From Pseudomonas pergaminensis (GTDB lineage Bacteria; Pseudomonadota; Gammaproteobacteria; Pseudomonadales; Pseudomonadaceae), in NCBI RefSeq assembly GCF_024112395.2, contig NZ_CP078013.2, forward strand, positions 5,394,001-5,458,000: DNA of 64,000 nucleotides, read 5' to 3'. Below are positions 1 through 58,396 of this stretch, piece after piece. The notes beneath the pieces are model-generated. The model was not told the DNA's origin and did no database searches. It worked only from the letters and a program-made list of their open reading frames with translations. The stretch's first letter is position 1; every line of letters starts with the position of its first letter. The translations under genes were made by a program, and so were the position numbers.

Positions 1-210
1 AGGGCCGAATACAACCTTGTCACCGACTTTAACGGCCAGAGCACGCACTTCACCGTTTTCCAGGGTTTTGCCTGGGCCAGCAGCGACGATCACACCGTGG
101 TTGGCTTTCTCGGCAGCCGAACCTGGCAGAACGATCCCGCCGGCGGTTTTCTTTTCTTCTTCGCTGCGACGGATTACGACGCGGTCGTGCAGAGGACGAA
201 GCTTGCTCAT
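1..210 (-). CDS. groES: Co-chaperonin GroES (partial, C-terminus outside window)
   Basis: The first 70 residues of the 10 kDa lid of the GroEL/GroES folding chamber, a cytoplasmic chaperonin. The sequence opens [15 protein letters not shown] and continues through [13 protein letters not shown], the start of the mobile loop that docks onto GroEL, to [10 protein letters not shown], where it runs off the window. Full-length GroES is about 97 residues, so roughly 27 are missing. groEL is expected further out on the same strand. A sigma-32-like promoter lies about 145 bp upstream, and a purine-rich AGGAGAG sits just before the ATG. Identification is firm. Confidence 0.96.
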
Positions 211-351
211 TGTCGATCTCTCCTAATTGTGTTTTTCATCGGCCGGTGTCTGTACCGGCGGGTTGTAGTCCGGCTGTGCCGGTCGCGCCTCGCCAAGCAA
301 GACGCGGAAGTCTGTCTGGTGTCGCCACCAGAAACCTTGCGGTGACCGTTA

Positions 352-37022: not shown

Positions 37023-37071
37023 GGCCCCATTGCGGGGCCCTACAACCAATGCCTGCACCATTTTGACTGCA

Positions 37072-37100
37072 TTGACATGGTATTTAAGTGGTATTAATTT
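37072..37100 (+). promoter_or_regulatory. nag promoter with overlapping operator 2
   Basis: TTGACA (37072-37077), a 17-base spacer and TAATTT (37095-37100), 53 bases before the nagQ start. The spacer is the operator TGGTATTTAAGTGGTATTA (37078-37096), again two TGGTAT units. A repressor bound here would block RNA polymerase directly, so autoregulation is likely. Confidence 0.7.
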
Positions 37101-37152
37101 CCGGCCCATACCGGGCGACAACACTCCAATAACCGCATCGGAAACCTTAACG

Positions 37153-37911
37153 ATGAATCCCATCCTGGCCCTGCGCCCCGACGACAAACAATCCACGCCG
37201 CTGTACCTGCAATTGGCGCGCAAACTGGAAGCGGCGATCCATGCCGGCCAGTGGACGTCCGAGCAGGCACTGCCGTCAGAACGCGTACTCAGCGAGCAAT
37301 TGAGCATTTCACGCGTCACCGCACGCAAGGCGTTGGAAGTGTTGTTTGCCCAAGGGCTGATCCGCCGAAACCAAGGTTCCGGCACCTATATTTCGCCACG
37401 CTTGGAACAGCCGCTGTCGCGCCTGTCGGGGTTCAGCGAAATGCTGCGACTCAAGGGTTTCGTGCCCAGCTCCCAATGGCTGGAGCGTGAACTGACCCAG
37501 CCGACCCACGAAGAGATGATCCGCCTGGGCCTGTCGCCCGCCGACAAAGTGGCTCGCCTCAAGCGCTTGCGTAAGGCGGATGACACGGTGATGGCAATTG
37601 AAATGACCACCATGCCCGCCTCCGTGCTGCCACAGCCACAAGCCATCGGCCACTCGCTGTACGAATACCTGGAAGGCATCGGCAAACCAGTGGTGCGCGC
37701 CCTGCAGCATATCCAGGCGATCAACGCCTCGGACGAGTTCGCCAAGCTGGTCGGCATCGCCCCCGGTACCGCCATGCTGCTGATGACCCGGGTCGGCTAC
37801 ACCGCCGATAACACGCCGATCGAAATCACCGACACCTACTGCCGCAACGACTACTACGACTTCGTCGCAGAACTGCGTCGCCACGACTATTCCGCTGAAC
37901 TGCGAATTTAG
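37153..37911 (+). CDS. nagQ: GntR-family transcriptional regulator of the nag operon
   Basis: A 252-residue repressor of the GntR/HutC group: an N-terminal winged helix (about 12-80, with SERVLSEQLSISRVTARKAL) and a UTRA ligand domain (about 95-245). It heads the GlcNAc genes and would sense GlcNAc-6-phosphate or glucosamine-6-phosphate. Two operator-like repeats lie upstream, one across the promoter. The start MNPILALRPDD is chosen by family length; the ribosome binding site is poor. nagA follows after 10 bases. The name NagQ follows usage for Pseudomonas-type operons. Confidence 0.88.
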   Translation: MNPILALRPDDKQSTPLYLQLARKLEAAIHAGQWTSEQALPSERVLSEQLSISRVTARKALEVLFAQGLIRRNQGSGTYISPRLEQPLSRLSGFSEMLRLKGFVPSSQWLERELTQPTHEEMIRLGLSPADKVARLKRLRKADDTVMAIEMTTMPASVLPQPQAIGHSLYEYLEGIGKPVVRALQHIQAINASDEFAKLVGIAPGTAMLLMTRVGYTADNTPIEITDTYCRNDYYDFVAELRRHDYSAELRI

Positions 37912-37921
37912 AGAACTGCCC

Positions 37922-39028
37922 ATGTCCGAAGACAACATCCTCACGCCCAGCGGCTGGATTCGCGGCCGCCTGGTGCACGCGCACGGCAAGGTCGTCGCCA
38001 TCGAAGGCACGCCCTGCGACCCGGCTGAAAACGAGTTGCCCTACCTGCTGCCGGGCTTTATCGACCTGCATGTGCACGGCGGTGGCGGCGCGGACATCAT
38101 GGAAGGCCGCGATGCCTTCGAGACGATCACCCGCACCCATGTGCGCTTTGGTACTACCTCGTTGCTGGCCACCACCATGACCGCTCCGGTGGAGGAAATC
38201 TCAAGCGTGCTTGGCCAGCTCGGCACCTTCTGCGAGCAACGTCCTACCGGCAGCGCCCGTGTACTCGGCGTGCACCTGGAAGGGCCCTACATCAATCCCG
38301 GAAAACTCGGCGCCCAACCCAACTTCGCCCACACCGCGTTGATGGCCGAAGTGGAAGCCTACCTGCGCCTGGCGCCAATCCGCGTGATCACCATCGCGCC
38401 GGAAATCGCCGGGCATGACGGCCTGATCCGTGCCCTCAGCGAGCGCGGCGTGCGCATGCAGATCGGCCACACCCTGGGCAGCTACGAAGAAGGCGTCGCC
38501 GCCCTCGCCGCCGGGGCCACCAGCTTTACCCATTTGTACAACGCGATGAGCCCGTTGCATCACCGCGAGCCGGGCATCGTCGGCGCCGCGTTGGCCCACG
38601 CCAAATACGCCGAATTGATCCCGGATCTGCTCCACGTTCACCCCGGCGCCATGCGCGTGGCGTTGCGCTCGATCCCATGCCTGTATTGCGTCACCGATTC
38701 CACCGCCGCCGCCGGCATGCCCGACGGTGAATACAAGCTGGGCAGCCACACCGTGACCAAATGCCTGGGCGGCGTGCGCCTGGCCGACGGCACGCTGGCC
38801 GGCAGCACGCTGACCATGGACCAGGCGCTGCGCAACCTGGTGAAGATCGGCTTGCCCATCAGCGAAGCCTCACAACGCCTGTCGCAATTTCCTGCGGACT
38901 ACCTGGGCCTGGAAGAACGCGGTCGCCTGCAACCCGGCAGCTTTGCCGACTGCGTGCGCCTGGACCGCTCCCTGACACTCACCGACGTAATGGTCGAAGG
39001 AGAAACCATTGACTTCAAAAATGCTTGA
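37922..39028 (+). CDS. nagA: N-acetylglucosamine-6-phosphate deacetylase
   Basis: A 368-residue amidohydrolase that removes acetate from GlcNAc-6-P to give glucosamine-6-P. Visible family landmarks are GFIDLHVHGGGGADIME (about 40-56), HLEGPYINPGKLGAQP (metal-binding Glu), IGHTLGSYEEGVAAL and THLYNAMSPLHHREPG. The C-terminal GLEERGRLQPGSFADCV is typical of the fold. The last 20 bases overlap the deaminase gene that starts at TTG 39009, so the two are coupled. Confidence 0.95.
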   Translation: MSEDNILTPSGWIRGRLVHAHGKVVAIEGTPCDPAENELPYLLPGFIDLHVHGGGGADIMEGRDAFETITRTHVRFGTTSLLATTMTAPVEEISSVLGQLGTFCEQRPTGSARVLGVHLEGPYINPGKLGAQPNFAHTALMAEVEAYLRLAPIRVITIAPEIAGHDGLIRALSERGVRMQIGHTLGSYEEGVAALAAGATSFTHLYNAMSPLHHREPGIVGAALAHAKYAELIPDLLHVHPGAMRVALRSIPCLYCVTDSTAAAGMPDGEYKLGSHTVTKCLGGVRLADGTLAGSTLTMDQALRNLVKIGLPISEASQRLSQFPADYLGLEERGRLQPGSFADCVRLDRSLTLTDVMVEGETIDFKNA

Positions 39029-40031
39029 AGAGGCCCTGGCCTCCTGCGACGCCGTGGCCGCCCAACTGCAACGCCTGGACCCGGCGCTGGAGGAAATCGC
39101 CGGCCGCCTGCGTCGTCAGCCGCCGCAGGTGGCGATGACCATCGCCCGTGGCAGCTCGGACCATGCCGCCAGCTATTTCGCCTACCTGACCATGCAGCAC
39201 GTCGGCATTCCGGTGGCGTCGTTGCCGATGTCGGTAGTGACCCTGTTGCAGGCGCCAATGAAAGTCAGCGGCCAGGTGGCATTTGGTTTCTCCCAGTCGG
39301 GGCAAAGTCCGGACTTGGTGAACAGCCTGCGCCTGCTACGCAAACGCGGTGCCCTGAGCATTTCGCTGGTCAACGCCGAAGACTCGCCGCTGGAAGCTGC
39401 CTGCGAATTCCATGTACCGCTGTGCGCCGGGCCGGAACACAGCGTGGCCGCGACCAAAAGCTTCATCGCCACCCTCAGCGCCAGCGCGCAGCTGATCGGC
39501 CACTGGAACCAGGAAACCGAGTTGCTGCAAGCCTGCCGCGCCCTGCCCGATGACCTGCGTGCCGCCGCCCAGCAAGATTGGACGGTTGCCATCGACGCCC
39601 TGCGCGACTGCCAGCAATTAATGGTCATCGGTCGCGGCGCCGGTTTCGCCATCGCCCAGGAAGCTGCACTCAAGCTCAAGGAAACCTCGGCGATCCAGGC
39701 CGAAGCCTTCAGCAGCGCCGAAGTGCGCCACGGGCCGATGGCCTTGATCGACAAGAATTACCCCTTGCTGGTGTTCGCCCCACGCGGCGCCGAGCAGGCT
39801 GGCCTGTTGAGCCTGGCCGCCGATATGCGCCAACGCGGCGCCCGTGTGTTGCTGGCTGCGCCAGACGATATCGCCGAACGCGACCTGACCCTGAGCCGCG
39901 CCGAACACCCGACCCTGGACCCGATCCTGGCGATCCAGAGTTTCTACGTGATGGCGGCAGGTTTGGCGCAAGCCCGGGGCATGGACCCGGACCAGCCGCG
40001 TCACCTGAGCAAAGTTACCCGCACTCACTGA
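39009..40031 (+). CDS. SIS-domain glucosamine-6-phosphate deaminase (NagB-II type)
   Basis: A 340-residue protein with two SIS domains (about 30-170 and 195-330), with ARGSSDHAASYFAYLTM and ETSAIQAEAFSSAEVRHGP. It is the GlmS-isomerase-like kind of deaminase that replaces the classical NagB in many proteobacteria and makes fructose-6-P and ammonia from glucosamine-6-P. The TTG start at 39009 is preferred because AAGGAG lies six bases before it; the ATG four codons later has none. It is translationally linked to nagA. Confidence 0.88.
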   Translation: MTSKMLEEALASCDAVAAQLQRLDPALEEIAGRLRRQPPQVAMTIARGSSDHAASYFAYLTMQHVGIPVASLPMSVVTLLQAPMKVSGQVAFGFSQSGQSPDLVNSLRLLRKRGALSISLVNAEDSPLEAACEFHVPLCAGPEHSVAATKSFIATLSASAQLIGHWNQETELLQACRALPDDLRAAAQQDWTVAIDALRDCQQLMVIGRGAGFAIAQEAALKLKETSAIQAEAFSSAEVRHGPMALIDKNYPLLVFAPRGAEQAGLLSLAADMRQRGARVLLAAPDDIAERDLTLSRAEHPTLDPILAIQSFYVMAAGLAQARGMDPDQPRHLSKVTRTH

Positions 40032-40045
40032 GTGGCGTTTTCCTG

Positions 40046-42571
40046 ATGAGTACCGTGCCCATGCCCTACAACAATAATGAATTGACCCTCAGCGCCCCGT
40101 TAAGCGGGCCCGTGCTGACCCTGGGCGACGTTCCTGATGAAGTGTTCGCAAGCCACGCCATGGGCGACGGTATTGCCATCGACCCCCTGAACGATTGCCT
40201 GCATGCGCCCTGTGACGGCGTAATCATCCATGTCGCGCGCACCGGGCACGCCCTGACGATTCGCGCCCAGAACGGTGCCGAGGTGTTGATGCATGTGGGC
40301 ATCGATACGGTGGAGCTGAACGGCGAAGGCTTTGCCTTGCTGGTGAAGGAAGGCGCGAAGGTGAGCAAGGGGCAAGCATTGGTGCAGTTTGACCTCGACC
40401 GCATTGCGCGCCAGTGCAAGAGCTTGATCAGCCTGATCATCCTGACCAATGGCGAACGTTTCGAATTGCGTTCGGTAGCCGGGCAATCGATCAAGGTCGG
40501 CGAGCCGTTGTTGCGGGTCGTGGCGCGTTCGGCGGCAGCGGTTCAAACCGCTGTGGATAACTCGGACGCTGAAGTCAGCGCCAGCGTGCGCATCACGCAT
40601 CGCGGTGGTTTGCATGCGCGTCCGGCGGCGTTGATCCGCAAGACGGCCCAGGGTTTCAGCAGCCAGGCACAGCTGCATTTCGGTGACAAATCAGCTTCGT
40701 GTGACAGCTTGATTGGCTTGATGGGACTGGGTATTGGCGAAGGGGATGAAGTGCGTGTGAGCTGTCGCGGCAAGGATGCGGAGGTGGCGTTGCAGGCACT
40801 GGTCGCGGCCTTGTCCGCCGCCATTAAGGAAGAACACCACGCCCCCGTCGTTGCCACCCCACGCCGAGCCAACACCGAAGCCGGCGTGTTGCAAGGTGTG
40901 TGTGCTGCTCCGGGTCTCGTATGTGGGCCGCTGTTCCGCCTGACGGGTATCGAACTGCCGGCAGACACCGGCCACCATGCTGCCGATGAGCAACTGCAAC
41001 GCCTGGACGCCGCCCTGGAGCAAGTGCGCAGCGAAATTCGCATGACTCTGGATCAAGCGCGCCAGCGCAAGAACGTCGAGGAAGAAGACATCTTCGCCGC
41101 CCACCTCGCGCTGATGGAAGATCCTAACCTGCTGGAAGCCGCGACCGGCTCCATCGAAAAAGGCAGCGCAGCGACTCACGCCTGGCGCGATGCAATCCAG
41201 GCGCAATGCGCGGTATTGCTGGCCCTGGGCAAACCACTGTTTGCCGAACGCGCCAACGATCTGCGTGATTTGCAACAACGGGTACTGCGTGCGTTGCTGG
41301 GTGAGGCCTGGCATTTCGAATTGCCCGCGGGGTCGATTGTCAGCGCCCATGAACTGACCCCCTCAGACCTGCTGCAACTCAGCGCGCAACAGGCCGTCGG
41401 CATTTGCATGGCCGAAGGCGGCGCCACCTCTCACGTGGCGATCCTGGCGCGCGGCAAAGGCTTGCCCTGCGTGGTGGCGTTGGGTGCCGAAGTCCTCGAT
41501 GTGCCCCAAGGCCAACGTGTGGTGCTGGACGCCGCCAACGGCCGCCTGGAACTGGCACCCAGCGACGCGCGCCACGCCGAAGTGCACCAGATTCGTGACG
41601 CGCAGAAACGGCGTCGCCAGCAGCAACAGGCCCAGGCTCAACAGCCGGCGCGCACCAGCGACGGCGTGACCATCGAAGTGGCCGCCAATGTCGCTTCCAG
41701 TGCCGAAGCCCAAGTGGCGTTTGAAAACGGTGCCGATGGCGTCGGCCTGCTGCGCACCGAATTCCTCTTCGTCGACCGCCGCACCGCGCCGGATGAGCAG
41801 GAACAACGCCACGCCTACCAAGCCGTACTGGATGCCATGGGCGACAAGTCAGTGATCATCCGCACCATCGACGTGGGCGGCGACAAGCAACTCGATTACC
41901 TGCCACTGCCCGTCGAAGCCAACCCGGTGCTGGGCCTGCGCGGTATCCGCATGGCCCAAGTGCGCCCGGAACTGCTCGACCAGCAACTGCGCGCGCTGCT
42001 GCAGGTCTCCCCACTGGAGCGCTGCCGCATCCTGCTGCCGATGGTCAGTGAGGTGGATGAGCTGCTGCAGATCCGCCAGCGTTTGGATGAGTTGTGCGTG
42101 GAGCTGGAACTGACCCAGCGCCCCGAACTGGGCGTGATGATCGAAGTGCCCGCAGCCGCACTGATGGCCGAGCAGTTGGCCAAGCACGCGGACTTCCTGT
42201 CCATCGGCACCAATGACTTGTCCCAGTACACCCTGGCCATGGACCGCGACCACGCCGGCCTTGCCGCGCGCGTCGATGCGCTGCACCCGGCGCTGCTGCG
42301 GCTGATCGCCCAGACCTGCGCGGGCGCTGCAAAACACGGGCGTTGGGTCGGCGTGTGTGGCGCCCTCGCCTCCGACCCGTTGGCCACGCCGGTCCTGGTG
42401 GGCCTGGGGGTCAGCGAGCTCTCGGTAAGCCCGCCGCAGATCGGAGAAATCAAGGACCGTGTCCGCCACCTGGACGCGGCGCAATGCCGGCAACTGAGCC
42501 AAGGGCTGCTCGACCTGAGCAGCGCCAAAGCCGTTCGCCAAGCCTGTCAACACCACTGGCCGCTGAGCTGA
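40046..42571 (+). CDS. nagF: Fused PTS EIIA(Glc-type)-HPr-EI for N-acetylglucosamine
   Basis: An 841-residue cytoplasmic phosphotransferase containing three PTS steps in one chain. Residues about 15-145 are the EIIA domain with the phosphohistidine H83 (LMHVGIDT), about 175-260 HPr with H190 (GLHARPAAL), and about 285-841 enzyme I with H463 (GGATSHVAILARG) and the PEP-binding barrel (FLSIGTNDLSQYTLAMDRD). It takes phosphate from PEP and passes it to NagE. This fused arrangement serves the GlcNAc PTS in Pseudomonas. The start MSTVPMPYNNN has a weak ribosome binding site; ATG five codons later is possible. nagE follows after 27 bases. Confidence 0.93.
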   Translation: MSTVPMPYNNNELTLSAPLSGPVLTLGDVPDEVFASHAMGDGIAIDPLNDCLHAPCDGVIIHVARTGHALTIRAQNGAEVLMHVGIDTVELNGEGFALLVKEGAKVSKGQALVQFDLDRIARQCKSLISLIILTNGERFELRSVAGQSIKVGEPLLRVVARSAAAVQTAVDNSDAEVSASVRITHRGGLHARPAALIRKTAQGFSSQAQLHFGDKSASCDSLIGLMGLGIGEGDEVRVSCRGKDAEVALQALVAALSAAIKEEHHAPVVATPRRANTEAGVLQGVCAAPGLVCGPLFRLTGIELPADTGHHAADEQLQRLDAALEQVRSEIRMTLDQARQRKNVEEEDIFAAHLALMEDPNLLEAATGSIEKGSAATHAWRDAIQAQCAVLLALGKPLFAERANDLRDLQQRVLRALLGEAWHFELPAGSIVSAHELTPSDLLQLSAQQAVGICMAEGGATSHVAILARGKGLPCVVALGAEVLDVPQGQRVVLDAANGRLELAPSDARHAEVHQIRDAQKRRRQQQQAQAQQPARTSDGVTIEVAANVASSAEAQVAFENGADGVGLLRTEFLFVDRRTAPDEQEQRHAYQAVLDAMGDKSVIIRTIDVGGDKQLDYLPLPVEANPVLGLRGIRMAQVRPELLDQQLRALLQVSPLERCRILLPMVSEVDELLQIRQRLDELCVELELTQRPELGVMIEVPAAALMAEQLAKHADFLSIGTNDLSQYTLAMDRDHAGLAARVDALHPALLRLIAQTCAGAAKHGRWVGVCGALASDPLATPVLVGLGVSELSVSPPQIGEIKDRVRHLDAAQCRQLSQGLLDLSSAKAVRQACQHHWPLS

Positions 42572-42598: not shown

Positions 42599-44305
42599 AT
42601 GTACCAACATTTCATCGAAGGCCTGCAACGCCTGGGCCGTGCACTGATGCTGCCGATTGCGATCCTGCCGATCGCCGGCCTCTTGCTGCGCCTGGGCGAC
42701 ACCGATCTTTTGAACATCGCGGTGATGCACGACGCCGGGCAGGCGATCTTCGCTAACCTGGCGCTGATCTTCGCTATCGGCATCGCCGTGGGGTTTGCCC
42801 GCGACAACAACGGCACGGCCGGTTTGGCGGGTGCGATTGGCTACTTGGTGATGGTCTCCACGCTCAAGGTGATGGACACGTCCATCAACATGGGCATGCT
42901 TGCCGGTATCGCCAGCGGCCTGATGGCGGGCGGGCTGTACAACCGCTTCAAGGACATCAAGCTACCGGAGTACCTGGCGTTCTTTGGTGGGCGACGGTTC
43001 GTGCCGATCGTCACCGGGTTCAGTGCGGTCGGATTGGGCGTGATCTTTGGTTTGATCTGGCCGCCGATCCAGCACGGTATCAACAGCTTCGGCGTGTTGT
43101 TGATGGAAAGCGGCAGCCTGGGTGCGTTTGTGTTTGGCGTGTTCAACCGCCTGCTGATCGTCACCGGGCTGCACCACATCCTCAACAACATGGCGTGGTT
43201 TGTGTTCGGCACCTTTACCGATCCGGCCACCGGCGCGGTGGTGACGGGCGACCTGACCCGCTATTTCGCTGGCGACCCCAAAGGCGGCCAGTTCATGACC
43301 GGCATGTTCCCGGTGATGCTGTTCGGTCTGCCTGCCGCGTGCCTGGCGATGTACCGCAACGCTTTGCCCGAGCGCCGCAAAGTGATGGGCGGGATTTTCC
43401 TATCGATGGCGCTGACCTCGTTCCTGACGGGGGTGACCGAGCCGATTGAGTTCGCGTTCATGTTCCTCGCGCCGTTCCTGTACCTGATCCATGCGGTGCT
43501 GACCGGCCTGTCGATGGCGGTCACCAATATGCTGAATATCCACCTGGGCTTTACCTTCTCCGGTGGGTTTATCGACATGGTGCTGGGTTGGGGCAAGTCC
43601 ACCAACGGCTGGCTGGTATTCCCGGTTGGTTTGGCCTATGCGCTGATCTATTACAGCGTGTTCAACTACTGCATTCGCCGCTTCAACCTGAAAACGCCGG
43701 GGCGGGAAGATATCCAGGTGGTGCAGGCTGAGGTGATGACGGATAACCAGCGCGCTACGGCCTACATCCAGGCCTTGGGCGGTGCGCAGAATTTGCTGAG
43801 CGTTGGCGCCTGCACCACGCGCCTGCGGTTGGACATGGTGGATCGCAACAAGGCGGTGGATGCGGAGCTGAAAGCCCTGGGTGCCATGGCGGTCGTCCGG
43901 CCAGGTAACGGCGGCAGTTTGCAGGTGGTGGTCGGGCCGATGGCAGACAGCATTGCCGATGAGATTCGGTTGGCCATGCCTTCGTTTGTTGCCAGTGCGC
44001 CGGTGGCGGTTGCGTCTGTGGATAAACCGGTGGCGGTGAATGTGCAGGAAGCCGAGAAGTGGCTGAATGCCTTGGGTGGCCGAGGGAATGTTCGCCAGTT
44101 GGAAGCGGTGGCGATGACGCGGTTGCGGGTGGAGTTAGGGGATGACTCGGTGTTGTCTGAAGCTGACCTGACGGCTCTGGGTTGCCAGGGTGTGAGCCAG
44201 CTGGAAAGCGGTGTTTGGCACTTGTTGATTGGTGACAAAGCGTCGGGCTTGGGTGACGCGTTGGAGCGGTTGGTCAGCGGTCGCCAGATTGGGGCTGGGG
44301 CCTAA
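42599..44305 (+). CDS. nagE: PTS N-acetylglucosamine permease EIICB with second, cysteine-less EIIB domain
   Basis: A 568-residue inner-membrane permease. EIIC occupies about 1-365 with some ten hydrophobic segments and the family region GVTEPIEFAFMFLAP. A first EIIB domain (about 385-455) has the phosphorylated Cys405 in GACTTRLRL. A second EIIB-like domain (about 485-560) has AVAMTRLRV at the same place, exactly 100 residues later, with Ala505 where the cysteine should be. It imports GlcNAc as GlcNAc-6-P. AAGGAG precedes the ATG. The linker between the two EIIB units is alanine/valine-rich. Confidence 0.94.
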   Translation: MYQHFIEGLQRLGRALMLPIAILPIAGLLLRLGDTDLLNIAVMHDAGQAIFANLALIFAIGIAVGFARDNNGTAGLAGAIGYLVMVSTLKVMDTSINMGMLAGIASGLMAGGLYNRFKDIKLPEYLAFFGGRRFVPIVTGFSAVGLGVIFGLIWPPIQHGINSFGVLLMESGSLGAFVFGVFNRLLIVTGLHHILNNMAWFVFGTFTDPATGAVVTGDLTRYFAGDPKGGQFMTGMFPVMLFGLPAACLAMYRNALPERRKVMGGIFLSMALTSFLTGVTEPIEFAFMFLAPFLYLIHAVLTGLSMAVTNMLNIHLGFTFSGGFIDMVLGWGKSTNGWLVFPVGLAYALIYYSVFNYCIRRFNLKTPGREDIQVVQAEVMTDNQRATAYIQALGGAQNLLSVGACTTRLRLDMVDRNKAVDAELKALGAMAVVRPGNGGSLQVVVGPMADSIADEIRLAMPSFVASAPVAVASVDKPVAVNVQEAEKWLNALGGRGNVRQLEAVAMTRLRVELGDDSVLSEADLTALGCQGVSQLESGVWHLLIGDKASGLGDALERLVSGRQIGAGA

Positions 44306-44323
44306 CAAACCTTTGCCTGAACA

Positions 44324-44409
44324 GGCCCCATCGCGGGCAAGCCCGCCTCCCACATTTTTTATCTGTGAATACATTCAAAATGTGGGAGCTGGCTTGCCTG
44401 CGATTGGCC
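44324..44409. repeat. REPIN, type A (mixed)
   Basis: The left REP reads CGCGGGCAAGCCCGCCTCCCACA and the right TGTGGGAGCTGGCTTGCCTGCG, so the two arms come from slightly different variants. It begins 18 bases after the nagE stop. Confidence 0.8.
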
Positions 44410-44583
44410 TTAACTGGCGACTGGAGTGTTGAGACCAGGAATCCCATTCATGTCCAACACATGGTTACGGCGGGCTTGCAGTCCCGGTCGCTGAATTGGC
44501 AGCGGCTGGCGAAGATTAGTGAGAGGAGTTCCGAGGGACAACCTGAAAGACCTGTGGGAGAGATCTGAGGCGCCTGTCCCGAC

Positions 44584-44671
44584 GCCATCGCAGGCAAGCC
44601 AGCTCCCACAGGTGATGTACGACATGACAACGCGGTCGAATGTGGGAGCCGGGCTTGCCCGCGATGAGGCC
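44584..44671. repeat. REPIN, type A (mixed)
   Basis: CGCAGGCAAGCCAGCTCCCACA at the left and TGTGGGAGCCGGGCTTGCCCGCG at the right. The arms are again unequal, here with the variant on the right side. Confidence 0.8.
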
Positions 44672-50836: not shown

Positions 50837-51115
50837 TTAAAGGCCGGTGAGTAGATGCACCACTCCGCCCGTCAGCACCATCACACCTGGCACCCCCGCT
50901 GCCTTTAACGCCGTAGCATCCACCTTCGCCACATCCTGCAACTGCACCCTCACCCGCGTCAGCGCCACACGCTGCTGCGACTTGAGGTTATCCGCCCCAC
51001 CCAACGCGTTCAGCACCTCGGCCGACAACAGGCTTTGCGTCGGCGCGGTGACCGTCTCGGCGATCAAATCCGGCGTCAGGGCTTTCCAGAACGCCCGCTG
51101 CAATTTCTCGAACAT
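50837..51115 (-). CDS. Stand-alone EIIB-like PTS protein lacking the active cysteine
   Basis: A 92-residue protein whose C-terminal 60 residues match the glucose/GlcNAc-type EIIB fold (LNALGGADNLKSQQ, then RVALTRVRVQLQD and GVMVLTGGVVHLLTG). At the cysteine position the motif reads VALTRVRV with Ala51, so it should not accept phosphate there. An N-terminal helix-like extension of about 30 residues has no counterpart in the domain. ATG at 51115 is chosen, with GGAG eight bases upstream; it lies two bases after the stop of the EIIA-HPr-EI gene. Presumably regulatory or structural; function inferred only. Confidence 0.78.
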   Translation of the reverse strand: MFEKLQRAFWKALTPDLIAETVTAPTQSLLSAEVLNALGGADNLKSQQRVALTRVRVQLQDVAKVDATALKAAGVPGVMVLTGGVVHLLTGL

Positions 51116-51117
51116 GC

Positions 51118-53634
51118 TCAAAGCTCCACGACAGGTGAGGTTTCAACAGTGGCCGCGTGATATTGGCGCAGGGCCTCACGCACTTGGGCGGCTTCTTCCA
51201 GGCCCAGTACCTGGCGGGCGATGATCTGGCAGTCGGCCAGGTCCAGCTCGCGCACGGTGGCCTTGATGGTGGGGATCAACGGCACGCTGACCGACAACTC
51301 ATCCACCCCCAAGCCGATCAACACCGGCACGGCCAGCGCTTCGGAGGCCAACGCGCCGCACACGCCCACCCACTTGCCATGGGCATGGGCGGCCTTGACC
51401 GTGGTGGCGATCAGGCGCAGCACCGCCGGGTGGAAGCTGTCGGCCTGGCTGGCCAGGCGCGGGTGGTCGCGGTCCATGGCCAGGGTGTATTGGGTCAGGT
51501 CATTGGTGCCGATGGAGAAGAAGTCCACATGGGGCGCGAACACGTCCGCCATCAGCGCCGCCGAGGGCACCTCAATCATGATGCCCAGCTTCGGCAACTC
51601 GGTGAGCCCCAGCGCCAGCGCTTCCTCTTCAAGAATCTTGCGCGCCAGGTGCAGCTCCGATAGCAGGCTGACCATCGGCAACATGATGTGCAGCCGCGCA
51701 AAACCGGCACTGGCGAGGATCGCGCGGAACTGTTCGCGCAGCAGTTGCGGGCGTTCAAGGCACAGGCGGATGCCGCGCAAGCCGAGGAACGGGTTGGTTT
51801 CGGCGTCCATGGGCACATAGGCCAGCGGCTTGTCGCCACCGACGTCAAGGGTGCGCACCACCAGGTTGCGCCCCAGGCCCAGGGCACGGGCGATCGCGGT
51901 GTAGGTGCCGGCTTGTTCCTCGGGGCTTGGTGCGCGGTTGCGGTCCAGGTAGAGAAACTCCGAACGCAACAGGCCAACCCCTTCGCCGCCGAGGGTCAGG
52001 GCGTGCTCGACTTCCTGCAACGAGGCTACGTTGGCGGTCACTTCGACGTGATGGCCGTCGCGGGTGGTGGCCGGTAGAGACGCCTGCGCCACATCGCGCT
52101 GATGGCGCAGCACCTGGTGTTTGCGGGCGGCCTCCAACTGTTCGATCTCGGCCAGGTTCGGCTCCAGGTGCAACTCGCCTTTGTCGGCGTCGAGCAGCAC
52201 CTGTTTGCCGTTGGCCAGCGCCAGCACCTGGGCGGGCACGCCGCAGATAGCCGGCAGGCCAAGGGCTCGGGCCAGAATCGCGACATGGCTGGTCGCACCG
52301 CCGCCGACCGTGACAAACCCCAGGACTTTGCGGGTATCCAGGCTGGCGGTCTGCGAAGGGGTCAGTTGCTCGGCGATCAGGATCGCGCGCTCCGGCAAAT
52401 CCCAGGCGCTGTCCTGGACCCCCAGTATCAGTTTCAGCACACGCTGGCCGACGTCCGCCAGGTCGGCCGCACGTTCGGCCAGCAGGGCATTGCCTGAACC
52501 CCGGAACAGGTTGGCCGTCGCAACCGTGGCACTGTTCCAGGCAAAGGCGGCGCTCTTGCCCTCATCCAACAGGCTGTGGGCTTGTTCGAGCAAGGTCGGG
52601 TCTTCGAGCAACTCCTGATGCGCGCGGAAAATCTCCGCCTGGGCGCTGCCGGCAGCCGTGTCTTGCAGGGTTTGCAGCGCTGCGGTGGCAGCCACCAGGC
52701 CACGCGCCAGGGCGGCACGTTCAGACGCTTCATCCGTGCCGTGTTCAGGGATGACCCACTCGGGCTCGATCACTTGCACGACCTGGCCAAACGCCGAACC
52801 CGGTGAGGCGCAGACGCCTTTAAGCAACGTCGCCGACAGCACCATCGCGACCGGCTCGGCAACGTTCGTCACTGCCTCGCCACAGCCTTCGGCCAACAAG
52901 GCAACCAACGCCTGGATCGCTGCCTCGGCATCGGCGCCCGCCGCACTCACTTGCAGGGTGTCGCCCTGCACGGTCTGCAACGCCATGATCGCCACCAGCG
53001 ACTTGGCATTGGCGCTCTGGGTTTGCTTGTGCAGGTAGATGCTGGCCTTGAAACCCTTCGCCGCCTGGGCGAATACCGCCGCCGGGCGGGCATGCAGGCC
53101 GTTGGCATTGGGCAAGGTCAGTGGCTTGGAGAACAGTGCCTCGCCCTCCTCCTCATCCATCGCCTCGGCGGTTTCACGGGGGACTAACTGCAACAGCGGC
53201 TGGCCAGCGTCCACAAGACCGCTCGCCAATACGGTAAAGGGTTCGCCGCTGACCACCAGCATCAAGGTCAGCAAACTGCGCGCATGGATAGCCACGTAGT
53301 CGGCATCGAACTCGATCAGCGCCTGTCCGGCCTCCACCCGCTGGCCTTCCTGCACCAACCGGGTGAAGCCCTGGCCCGCCAGGTTCACGGTGTCCAGGCC
53401 GATATGCAGCAGCACCTGGACGCCGTTGTCATCGGTCACGCTGACCGCATGCCCGCTGTCCTGGATATTGCTGATCACCCCGGCCAGCGGCGCGCACAAG
53501 GTCTGCGAGGTCGGGTCGATGCACAGGCCGTCGCCGATCACGCGGCTGGAGAATACCGGGTCGGGGACCTTGTCCAGTGCCAGCAGCACACCGGATAGGG
53601 GCGCCAGCAATTCCAGGGGTTTAGATGGGGTCAT
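51118..53634 (-). CDS. Fused PTS EIIA-HPr-EI for trehalose
   Basis: An 838-residue multiphosphoryl transfer protein parallel to NagF. EIIA (about 8-140) has H77 (VLLHIGLDT), HPr (about 170-260) has H181 (NGLHARPAAVF), and EI (about 270-838) has H450 (GGGATSHVAILARALG) with FFSIGTNDLTQYTLAMDRD in the C-terminal barrel. It would deliver PEP phosphate to TreP. AGGTG precedes the ATG. The acidic linker EAMDEEEGEALF joins EIIA to HPr. Placement between the EIIB-like gene and lamB, in the order of the trehalose genes, gives the likely substrate. Confidence 0.9.
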   Translation of the reverse strand: MTPSKPLELLAPLSGVLLALDKVPDPVFSSRVIGDGLCIDPTSQTLCAPLAGVISNIQDSGHAVSVTDDNGVQVLLHIGLDTVNLAGQGFTRLVQEGQRVEAGQALIEFDADYVAIHARSLLTLMLVVSGEPFTVLASGLVDAGQPLLQLVPRETAEAMDEEEGEALFSKPLTLPNANGLHARPAAVFAQAAKGFKASIYLHKQTQSANAKSLVAIMALQTVQGDTLQVSAAGADAEAAIQALVALLAEGCGEAVTNVAEPVAMVLSATLLKGVCASPGSAFGQVVQVIEPEWVIPEHGTDEASERAALARGLVAATAALQTLQDTAAGSAQAEIFRAHQELLEDPTLLEQAHSLLDEGKSAAFAWNSATVATANLFRGSGNALLAERAADLADVGQRVLKLILGVQDSAWDLPERAILIAEQLTPSQTASLDTRKVLGFVTVGGGATSHVAILARALGLPAICGVPAQVLALANGKQVLLDADKGELHLEPNLAEIEQLEAARKHQVLRHQRDVAQASLPATTRDGHHVEVTANVASLQEVEHALTLGGEGVGLLRSEFLYLDRNRAPSPEEQAGTYTAIARALGLGRNLVVRTLDVGGDKPLAYVPMDAETNPFLGLRGIRLCLERPQLLREQFRAILASAGFARLHIMLPMVSLLSELHLARKILEEEALALGLTELPKLGIMIEVPSAALMADVFAPHVDFFSIGTNDLTQYTLAMDRDHPRLASQADSFHPAVLRLIATTVKAAHAHGKWVGVCGALASEALAVPVLIGLGVDELSVSVPLIPTIKATVRELDLADCQIIARQVLGLEEAAQVREALRQYHAATVETSPVVEL

Positions 53635-56953: not shown

Positions 56954-58396
56954 TCAGGCGACCCTGTACCCAGGCCGAACAATCTTGATGCTCAACGCAC
57001 AGGTCAAAACAAACGGCACCACCATCGCGATGACCATGCCAATCACAAACACCGCGATGGATTGCGGCACAATCGAGATAAACCCAGGCAAGCCTCCCAC
57101 GCCGATGGCCGAGGCCTGCACCTTGTTCAGCGCGAGGAAAATGCTGCCCAATCCCGAGCCCACCAAGGCCGCATAGAACGGAAACTTGAAGCGCAAATTC
57201 ACCCCGAACATCGCCGGCTCAGTAATGCCGAAGTAAGCCGAAATCGCCGAGGTCGACGCCATGCTCTTATCCCGCGCGTTGCGGGTCATGTAGAACACCG
57301 CAAGCGCAGCGCTGCCCTGGGCCAGGTTGGACATGACGATCATTGGCCAGATAAAGGTGCCGCCCTGAGTAGAAATAAGCTGCAGGTCCACGGCGAGGAA
57401 CATGTGGTGCATGCCGGTGATCACCAGCGGTGCATACAGCAGGCCGAAAATCGCCCCGCCGACCATGGGAGCCAGGTCAAACAGCGTGACCACGCCTTCG
57501 GTGATCAGGATGCCGAGATGACGGGTCACCGGGCCAATGATCGCCAGGGCCAACACACCCGTGACGACGATGGTGGTGATGGGTACGACGAGCAGTTGAA
57601 TCGCGTTGGGCACCCGCGCCCGCAGCCATTTTTCGATCACGCTCATCACGTAGGCGGCCATCAGGATCGGCAGGATCTGCCCCTGGTAGCCCACCTTCTC
57701 AATCTGGAACCAACCGAAAATATCGAAGTACGGCAGGCTCTGGCCGTCGAGACCGGCGACTGCCTTGCCGTAGTTCCAGGCGTTGAGCAGGTCCGGGTGC
57801 ACCAGCATCAGGCCGAGCACGATGCCGAGGATTTCGCTGCCGCCAAAACGCTTGGCCGCCGACCAGCCCACCAATGCCGGCAGGAACACAAACGAGGTGT
57901 TGGCCATCAGGTTGATCAGGCTCCACAGGCCATCCAGGTTCGGGTAGGCCTCCAGCAGCGTCTTGCCCTCGATGAACATGCCCTTGGCGCCCATCAGGTT
58001 GTTCACGCCCATCAACAGGCCGGCGATGATCAACGCGGGCAGGATCGGCATGAACACATCGGAGAACACCCGCACCAGGCGCTGCATGGCGTTGGTCTTG
58101 TCGGCGCCCTTCTTCTTCACGTCGGCGATGGTGGCAGCGGCGAGGCCGGTCTGCTCGCGCAGGGCGGCATAGACCTTTTCCACTTCGCCGGGGCCGATCA
58201 CCACCTGGAACAGGCCACCGGTGAAGAACGAACCTTTGACCAGATCGACCTGGTTCAGCGCGCTGCCGTTGACCCGGCTCGGGTCCTTGAGCGCCAGGCG
58301 CAGGCGGGTGACGCAATGGGCAGCTTGCTCAAGGTTGTCGCTGCCCCCGAGGTTCTCGAGAATCTCGCGGGCAATCGTCGAATAGTCGTGGCTCAT
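56954..58396 (-). CDS. treP: PTS trehalose permease EIIBC
   Basis: A 480-residue inner-membrane permease. The N-terminal EIIB domain (about 1-85) carries the phosphorylated Cys28 in AAHCVTRLRL. EIIC (about 105-470) has about ten hydrophobic segments and the family motif GITEPAMFGVNLRFKFPF. It imports trehalose as trehalose-6-phosphate. There is no EIIA domain, which is supplied by the fused protein. Twin operators lie just upstream, shared with divergent treR. Confidence 0.94.
   Translation of the reverse strand: MSHDYSTIAREILENLGGSDNLEQAAHCVTRLRLALKDPSRVNGSALNQVDLVKGSFFTGGLFQVVIGPGEVEKVYAALREQTGLAAATIADVKKKGADKTNAMQRLVRVFSDVFMPILPALIIAGLLMGVNNLMGAKGMFIEGKTLLEAYPNLDGLWSLINLMANTSFVFLPALVGWSAAKRFGGSEILGIVLGLMLVHPDLLNAWNYGKAVAGLDGQSLPYFDIFGWFQIEKVGYQGQILPILMAAYVMSVIEKWLRARVPNAIQLLVVPITTIVVTGVLALAIIGPVTRHLGILITEGVVTLFDLAPMVGGAIFGLLYAPLVITGMHHMFLAVDLQLISTQGGTFIWPMIVMSNLAQGSAALAVFYMTRNARDKSMASTSAISAYFGITEPAMFGVNLRFKFPFYAALVGSGLGSIFLALNKVQASAIGVGGLPGFISIVPQSIAVFVIGMVIAMVVPFVLTCALSIKIVRPGYRVA

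Follow-up and report, generated by a model that had tools for sequence, protein, structure and literature searches.

A Cys-Less Second EIIB Domain Accompanies the Fused EIIA-HPr-EI Donor in Glucose-Type Phosphotransferase Loci and May Serve as Its Docking Site

Introduction

The N-acetylglucosamine (GlcNAc) permease NagE encoded in the window (the whole 64,000-nucleotide stretch of Pseudomonas pergaminensis DNA that was analyzed) contains an EIIB domain with a phosphorylatable Cys and, behind it, a second EIIB domain with Ala in its place. A free EIIB-like protein of the same type is encoded in the trehalose operon. These arrangements raise the question of what an EIIB that lacks the phosphate-carrying residue contributes to two sugar systems and which partner it accompanies.

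The phosphotransferase system (PTS) genes of P. aeruginosa were reportedly described by Reizer et al. in 1999, possibly with mention of the NagE duplication. The literature on duplicated or double IIB (EIIB) domains, in its accessible parts, concerns fructose permeases or regulators (PMC2405797, PMC6872149, PMC3105977, and PMC4706839; others by title); it consists mostly of papers outside subscription journals, so an earlier mention elsewhere is possible. Extra IIB domains are described as a peculiarity of fructose permeases, and the role given to the FruA IIB' is one in protein-protein interaction and not in phosphoryl transfer (PMC6872149). Full activity of the E. coli fructose permease needs both IIB domains (PMC2405797, section 12). 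The P. aeruginosa nag PTS pair PA3760/PA3761, encoding a fused EI/HPr/EIIA protein and an EIIBC, is reported to be needed in both members for growth on GlcNAc (PMC2542419), and a paper on R. eutropha labels NagE as EIIBC.

Results

EIIB domains of the nag and trehalose operons

Features of the window are given below, with B' denoting Ala-type (second or free) EIIB domains and MTP denoting the fused donor EIIA-HPr-EI.

37030..40031, plus strand: rest of the nag cluster, namely a GntR/UTRA regulator, an amidohydrolase (nagA-like), and a SIS-domain protein (nagB-like) (Pfam)
40046..42571, plus strand: nag-operon MTP, the fused EIIA-HPr-EI phosphoryl donor, immediately 5' of nagE (Pfam; likely start at 40046)
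42599..44305, plus strand: nagE, GlcNAc PTS permease EIIC-EIIB-EIIB' (568-aa ORF; Pfam; TIGR01998, 612 bits, cutoff of 553)
43751..43969, plus strand: active EIIB (B1), NagE residues 385 to 457 (Cys405, Arg408, Arg410, and Gln442)
44045..44278, plus strand: second EIIB (B'), NagE residues 483 to 560 (Ala505 at 44111, Arg508, Arg510, and His541 at 44219)
50837..51115, minus strand: free 92-aa EIIB' encoded in the trehalose operon (Pfam, 31.4 bits; Ala51 at 50965 to 50963, Arg54, Arg56, and His87 at 50857 to 50855; predicted amphipathic helix at residues 2 to 12)
51118..53634, minus strand: trehalose-operon MTP, the fused EIIA-HPr-EI phosphoryl donor, separated by two bases from the free EIIB' gene that follows it (Pfam)
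56954..58396, minus strand: trehalose permease of the treB type (EIIBC), with one EIIB only, which is Cys-type (TIGR01992, 719 bits, cutoff of 592)

The last gene of the nag cluster, nagE, was preceded by an AAGGAG ribosome site, and Pfam placed PTS_EIIC plus PTS_EIIB in two stretches on its product. Cys405 is encoded by TGC at 43811 and Ala505 by GCG at 44111, and the separation of 100 residues given in the original prediction was reproduced exactly from these codon positions. The second, Ala-bearing EIIB that had been read at the NagE C terminus was recovered by Pfam, by a profile search of the own genome, and by an AlphaFold2 model. The profile search matched NagE at window positions 43760 to 43855 and 44057 to 44149, the second match scoring 32.1 bits (cutoff, 27), so this is a genuine second domain and not a chance motif. 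The model of residues 482 to 560 followed the EIIB order a-b-b-a-b-b-a (pLDDT of 89 to 95 per block of ten). Cys405 and Ala505 occupy equivalent positions when residues are counted backward from the conserved Arg; compared with the active EIIB, the NagE B' has one additional residue ahead of this Arg, so the match of the Cys column to the Ala column is uncertain by one residue. Short repeated motifs with GTGGGAG and GCAAGCC at 44310 to 44660 resembled, by eye, Pseudomonas REP elements.

The free Ala-type EIIB-like protein that had been noticed in the trehalose operon is indeed present, with a likely start at the ATG at 51115, two bases past the stop of the upstream gene and common to the aligned relatives. 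Genes similar to those for trehalose-phosphate hydrolase and a porin, both named by eye, were also found in this operon. Four Glc-type EIIB domains were detected genome-wide by profile search (two in NagE, one in TreB, and the free trehalose EIIB'). The NagE B' and the free protein both matched PF00367 and had the EIIB fold, and two traits of active EIIBs were absent from both, namely, the phosphorylatable Cys in the CxTRLR loop (Ala505 and Ala51) and the conserved Gln in the last strand (His541 and His87). Neither matched the fructose-family EIIB model PF02302 up to an E value of 1; the two PF02302 matches of the genome were both in FruA, encoded elsewhere.

Among PDB structures, the model of the free B' was closest to the EIIB of the EIIA-EIIB complex 1o2f (root mean square deviation [rmsd], 1.3 Å), with further matches to 3bp3 and, as third best, the Mlc/EIIB complex 3bp8. 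The likeness to E. coli PtsG EIIB (1iba, 1o2f, and 3bp3) included the fold (rmsd of 1.3 to 1.4 Å for this model) and the ALGG...TRxR pattern with both Arg residues in the two B' of the window; B' differed from it in lacking Cys at the phosphorylation site, in having His for Gln, and in the additional residue before Arg, present in 86 of 100 second domains. The predicted N-terminal helix of the free B' (MFEKLQRAFWKAL) had a hydrophobic moment of 0.70, reached by 59 of 10,000 shuffles, and was modeled with low confidence (pLDDT of 57, residues 1 to 10). It is presumably like the N-terminal sequence of E. coli EIIA-Glc, an amphipathic sequence reportedly assigned a membrane-anchor role by Wang et al. 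in 2000; unlike in EIIA-Glc, the helix here is on an EIIB-like protein, and its attachment to the membrane is putative.

Co-occurrence of the second EIIB with the fused donor

PF00367 matches were found in 66 of 119 Pseudomonas genomes, mostly four or two per genome. All 20 Pseudomonas nag loci that were fetched encoded an Ala-type second domain, all 19 complete trehalose loci encoded the free Ala-type protein (a 20th, cut by a contig end, was left uncounted), and an MTP gene adjoined in 39 of these 39 loci. In one Pseudomonas trehalose locus (L026), an additional EIIB-like frame of 62 aa (117 to 302, minus strand) lay past the gene for the free EIIB'.

A wider set comprised 40 loci around matches to the NagE and B' profiles; frame length was one basis of the choice, and six of the loci were further ones from Pseudomonadaceae. 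Two EIIBs were encoded in 27 of these and one in 13, and MTP was present in the fetched stretch of 27/27 versus 0/13. TIGR01998 matches occurred in 57 non-Pseudomonadaceae genomes. A full-length MTP (a match beginning at residue 6 or before) was found in 17 of them, all with a double-EIIB NagE; no full-length MTP was found in the other 40, of which the 34 that were read (all but G739, G785, G789, G825, G901, and G955) had one EIIB in the locus read. Across 397 Pseudomonadota genomes, there were 32 full-length MTP loci in 25 genomes, a count that leaves out G586 and G930, which match MTP only from about residue 170, and a second EIIB accompanied 32 of 32. It was within the permease in 26 (19 read, the window's own, and six from two matches in one frame) and was a free gene beside a trehalose MTP in six (the window's own and five by position). 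Matches from a separate search with a B' profile, found in at least 7 of 370 genomes of the class, were kept out of these counts.

A sample blind to EIIB was drawn by scanning named genomes with an MTP alignment and listing the best 80 loci, ranked by likeness to the query. EIIA-HPr-EI was encoded in 32 of these best 80, loci that are related to one another and so are no count of independent events, and exactly two Glc-type EIIBs were nearby in every one; a Glc-type EIIB was found in 0 of the 48 loci without EIIA-HPr-EI. Both EIIBs were in one permease in 26 of the 32, and six had TreB plus a free gene. The taxa with MTP loci were Pseudomonas, Chromobacterium, Paraburkholderia, Caballeronia, Burkholderia, Trinickia, Endozoicomonas, Billgrantia, Cysteiniphilum, Pseudovibrio, Pleomorphomonas, Sphingomonas, and a Humidesulfovibrio metagenome-assembled genome (MAG). 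Three kinds of permease, NagE, PtsG-type, and TreB, were associated with MTP and a second EIIB, the permeases of L126, L141, L142, and L150 being PtsG-type and those of L148 and L152 NagE-type by curated models. Given the kinship of the loci and the adjacency of the genes within operons, co-inheritance alone would yield much of the co-occurrence within a lineage; the counts are uncorrected for phylogeny.

In one of the 26 loci with both EIIBs in the permease (L162), the nagE frame was interrupted within EIIC, by mutation or sequencing error. Candidate fusions were rejected. In a 792-aa frame with EI and EIIB (P0038), EI breaks off within its domain and continues directly as NagE, which suggests a deletion or an assembly chimera. 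The long frames in L118 (1,424 aa) and L119 (885 aa) are not fusions, since each overlaps the donor gene in a different reading frame.

Active-site residues of the second domains

Residues were counted in 114 active and 100 second domains. Cys was at the site in 114/114 active versus 2/100 second domains. The first Arg was present in all domains of both kinds, the second Arg in all active and 92 second domains (lost in 8), and Gln in 114 active versus 5 second domains, the others having His (93) or Asp (2). The additional residue before Arg was confined to second domains (86/100 versus 0/114). A Cys one residue before the site was found in four second domains (L126, L127, L139, and L166), and a Cys two residues before it was found in 22, all Pseudomonas NagE; neither displacement was seen in the B' of the window or in any aligned trehalose B'. 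Among the 20 fetched Pseudomonas nag loci (L005 to L024), 16 NagE B' had a Cys five residues before Arg, and the NagE B' of the window had none.

The two Cys-bearing second domains were from L148 (Endozoicomonas) and L152 (Pseudovibrio), each in a locus with MTP. The first and second domains of these proteins were 67 and 70% identical; in 46 others, the median identity was 36% and none exceeded 52%. In the tree, the two Cys-type EIIBs were sisters within their own protein (100/96 and 99/95). Placement of both second domains with B' was rejected (P = 0.017), and placement of each singly was not (P = 0.38 for L148 and P = 0.55 for L152). They look like the products of separate duplications or of gene conversion. 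Since two Cys-type EIIBs occur with MTP in these loci, a second EIIB seems to be wanted even if it is not Cys-less. In L148, nagE precedes the MTP gene; in the other permease loci of the best 80, it follows.

Phylogeny of the EIIB domains

The original prediction was of one family of Cys-less EIIB modules used by two sugar systems, with the second NagE unit closer to the free trehalose protein than to the active EIIB beside it; it drew no link to the fused donor. In the tree from all columns, a single branch (84/80) divided the 64 active domains from every second and free domain, which supports a dedicated, conserved module serving several sugar systems. The window's two Ala domains both grouped apart from the active EIIB of their own permease; the opposite outcome thus did not occur, the domains being too short to exclude it. 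The split was not recovered once the active-site columns and six long rows were removed (second domains of L101, L102, L111, L112, L115, and L127; both domains of near-duplicates L105, L114, L123, L130, and L139 and part of the Pseudomonas loci were also left out). In this reduced tree, independent decay was not rejected (P = 0.56, 0.097, and 0.165), the first value being for trehalose B' joined with TreB, with a likelihood slightly above that of the free tree, and the second for B1 joined with B2 of Pseudomonadaceae NagE; a single clade of all B' had a P value of 0.46.

A tree of B' only was built without eight near-duplicate loci, L148, L152, and twelve long or odd rows. The trehalose copies grouped with PtsG-type B' and the nag rows L113 and L169 (87/88; 54/63 without these rows), and joining trehalose B' only with Pseudomonadaceae NagE B' was rejected (AU test, P = 0.033). 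Nearest kinship between the window's two Ala domains was not supported. In the MTP tree, trehalose and PtsG rows were joined, with the nag rows L127, L148, and L166 (100); these three are missing from the B' tree, so the two trees are shown to agree for the trehalose and PtsG rows and no further. The EIIB tree has about 80 columns and long branches, and its split dissolves without the diagnostic columns; it is not decisive, and weight was therefore placed on co-occurrence and on the comparison of divergences.

Divergence and selection

Rank correlations of divergence were calculated over 58 loci (without eight near-duplicate loci, L148, L152, and L162; kinship uncorrected). With EIIC controlled for, B' divergence was correlated with that of MTP (0.495; permutation P = 0.001); with MTP controlled for, it was not correlated with that of EIIC (-0.118). 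The active EIIB showed the reverse (0.013 with MTP given EIIC and 0.870 with EIIC given MTP). Across systems, B' divergence tracks MTP, not the permease. The contrast arises because the trehalose and PtsG systems are closer in MTP (mean identity of 50% versus 41%) and in B' (41% versus 32 to 33%), whereas PtsG and NagE are closer in EIIC (48% versus 20 to 22%). Within the 41 nag loci alone, the contrast was weak (given EIIC and given MTP, 0.399 and 0.173 for B' and 0.343 and 0.240 for B1), and the B'-MTP result therefore rests on the comparison between systems. By donor domain, the B' correlation was 0.433 for EIIA, 0.423 for HPr, and 0.490 for EI, with EIIA not singled out.

B' is under purifying selection. 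Median dN/dS ratios were 0.087 for EIIC, 0.085 for B1, 0.492 for the linker, and 0.217 for B', and 0.237 for the core and 0.077 for the N-terminal helix of the free B', in pairs that share sequences and with synonymous change in B' near saturation (median dS of 1.26).

Discussion

B' is probably a non-phosphorylatable docking domain for the fused phosphoryl donor, a reading drawn from sequence comparisons and from analogy with fructose permeases. B' retains the fold of an EIIB together with some of its active-site surface (the first Arg always and the second mostly) and, lacking the phosphate-carrying Cys, could bind the EIIA of the donor without accepting phosphate. In NagE, B' would keep the bulky EIIA-HPr-EI chain close to the membrane, where its EIIA would serve the neighboring active EIIB (Cys405) repeatedly, with a putative gain in transfer. 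The separate EIIB' of the trehalose system would do the same job, as TreB has only its own active EIIB, and the N-terminal amphipathic helix may attach it to the membrane.

Other roles can be considered for B'. A working phosphoryl relay, in which His541 or a displaced nearby Cys takes phosphate from EIIA and hands it on, would suit the His found in 93 of 100 second domains where active domains invariably have Gln, as well as the Cys one residue (4/100) or two residues (22/100, including 16 of the 20 fetched Pseudomonas NagE) before the site. It nevertheless seems unlikely, given that five second domains have Gln and two have Asp at the place of the His and that the displaced Cys is absent from the window and from all aligned trehalose B'. 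E. coli EIIB-Glc holds Mlc at the membrane, and B' might mimic a permanently unphosphorylated EIIB that retains a transcription factor in the same way. The third-best structure match, to the Mlc/EIIB complex 3bp8, is in line with such a trap, but the partner that B' follows is MTP, and the neighboring regulators are of the GntR/UTRA type (by Pfam in nag and by eye only in tre), making this role very unlikely.

B' could also be a functionless, decaying relic of independent domain duplications; it evolves faster than B1, and independent decay was not rejected when active-site columns were left out. This explanation, already disfavored, is highly improbable in light of the conserved first Arg (100/100) and His (93/100), the median dN/dS ratios of 0.217 and 0.237 (from pairs that are not independent, with synonymous sites near saturation), and the presence of a second EIIB in 32/32 MTP loci of the best 80, spanning Pseudomonas, Sphingomonas, and the Humidesulfovibrio MAG. 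A role as brake or decoy, in which B' would limit flux by drawing the donor away from the active EIIB, is improbable too. Phosphate-free binding, which the docking reading also assumes, would equally make a competitor; however, B' is seen only with fused donors, both copies keep Cys in two lineages, and the fructose precedent is activating, both IIB domains being needed for full activity in E. coli (PMC2405797).

The docking role is modeled on FruA (IIB'BC), in which, as with the NagE B', an extra EIIB is found in a permease served by a fused donor; the Glc-type B' shares with FruA-type IIB' docking domains this combination of extra EIIB and fused donor. The systems differ in EIIB family (PF02302 in FruA and PF00367 here) and in the position of the extra EIIB, which is N-terminal in FruA and C-terminal or a free gene here. 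FruA was encoded in 28 of the best 80 loci, with two EIIBs beside HPr-EI fusions in 26/26 and one beside unfused HPr and EI in 2/2, donors in this comparison being classed as HPr-EI fusions only, with the EIIA part not included.

More tentatively, these patterns could reflect a design rule, whereby a donor with EIIA, HPr, and EI in one chain needs a second EIIB site, a need that the fructose and glucose superfamilies would each have answered on their own; in Pseudomonas trehalose operons, the free EIIB', which may be membrane bound, might then be an adaptor that lets a single-EIIB permease use a fused donor. The extra-IIB solution of fructose permeases recurs among glucose-superfamily permeases of three kinds and at every EIIA-HPr-EI locus examined, which turns an unexplained EIIB duplication into a testable rule on how fused donors reach the permease.

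Many of the source records that name relatives of the free EIIB' call them "PTS glucose transporter subunit IIB" or "PTS transporter subunit EIIB"; such relatives, some of them named as glucose IIB in Pseudomonas records, are unlikely to be active EIIBs. Among the FruA proteins of the best 80 loci, some had two Cys-type EIIBs and some lacked Cys in the first. The N-terminal EIIB' of the own-genome FruA (L221, 946645 to 947253) keeps its Cys (TACPNGM), unlike the EIIB' of E. coli FruA, which is Cys-less.
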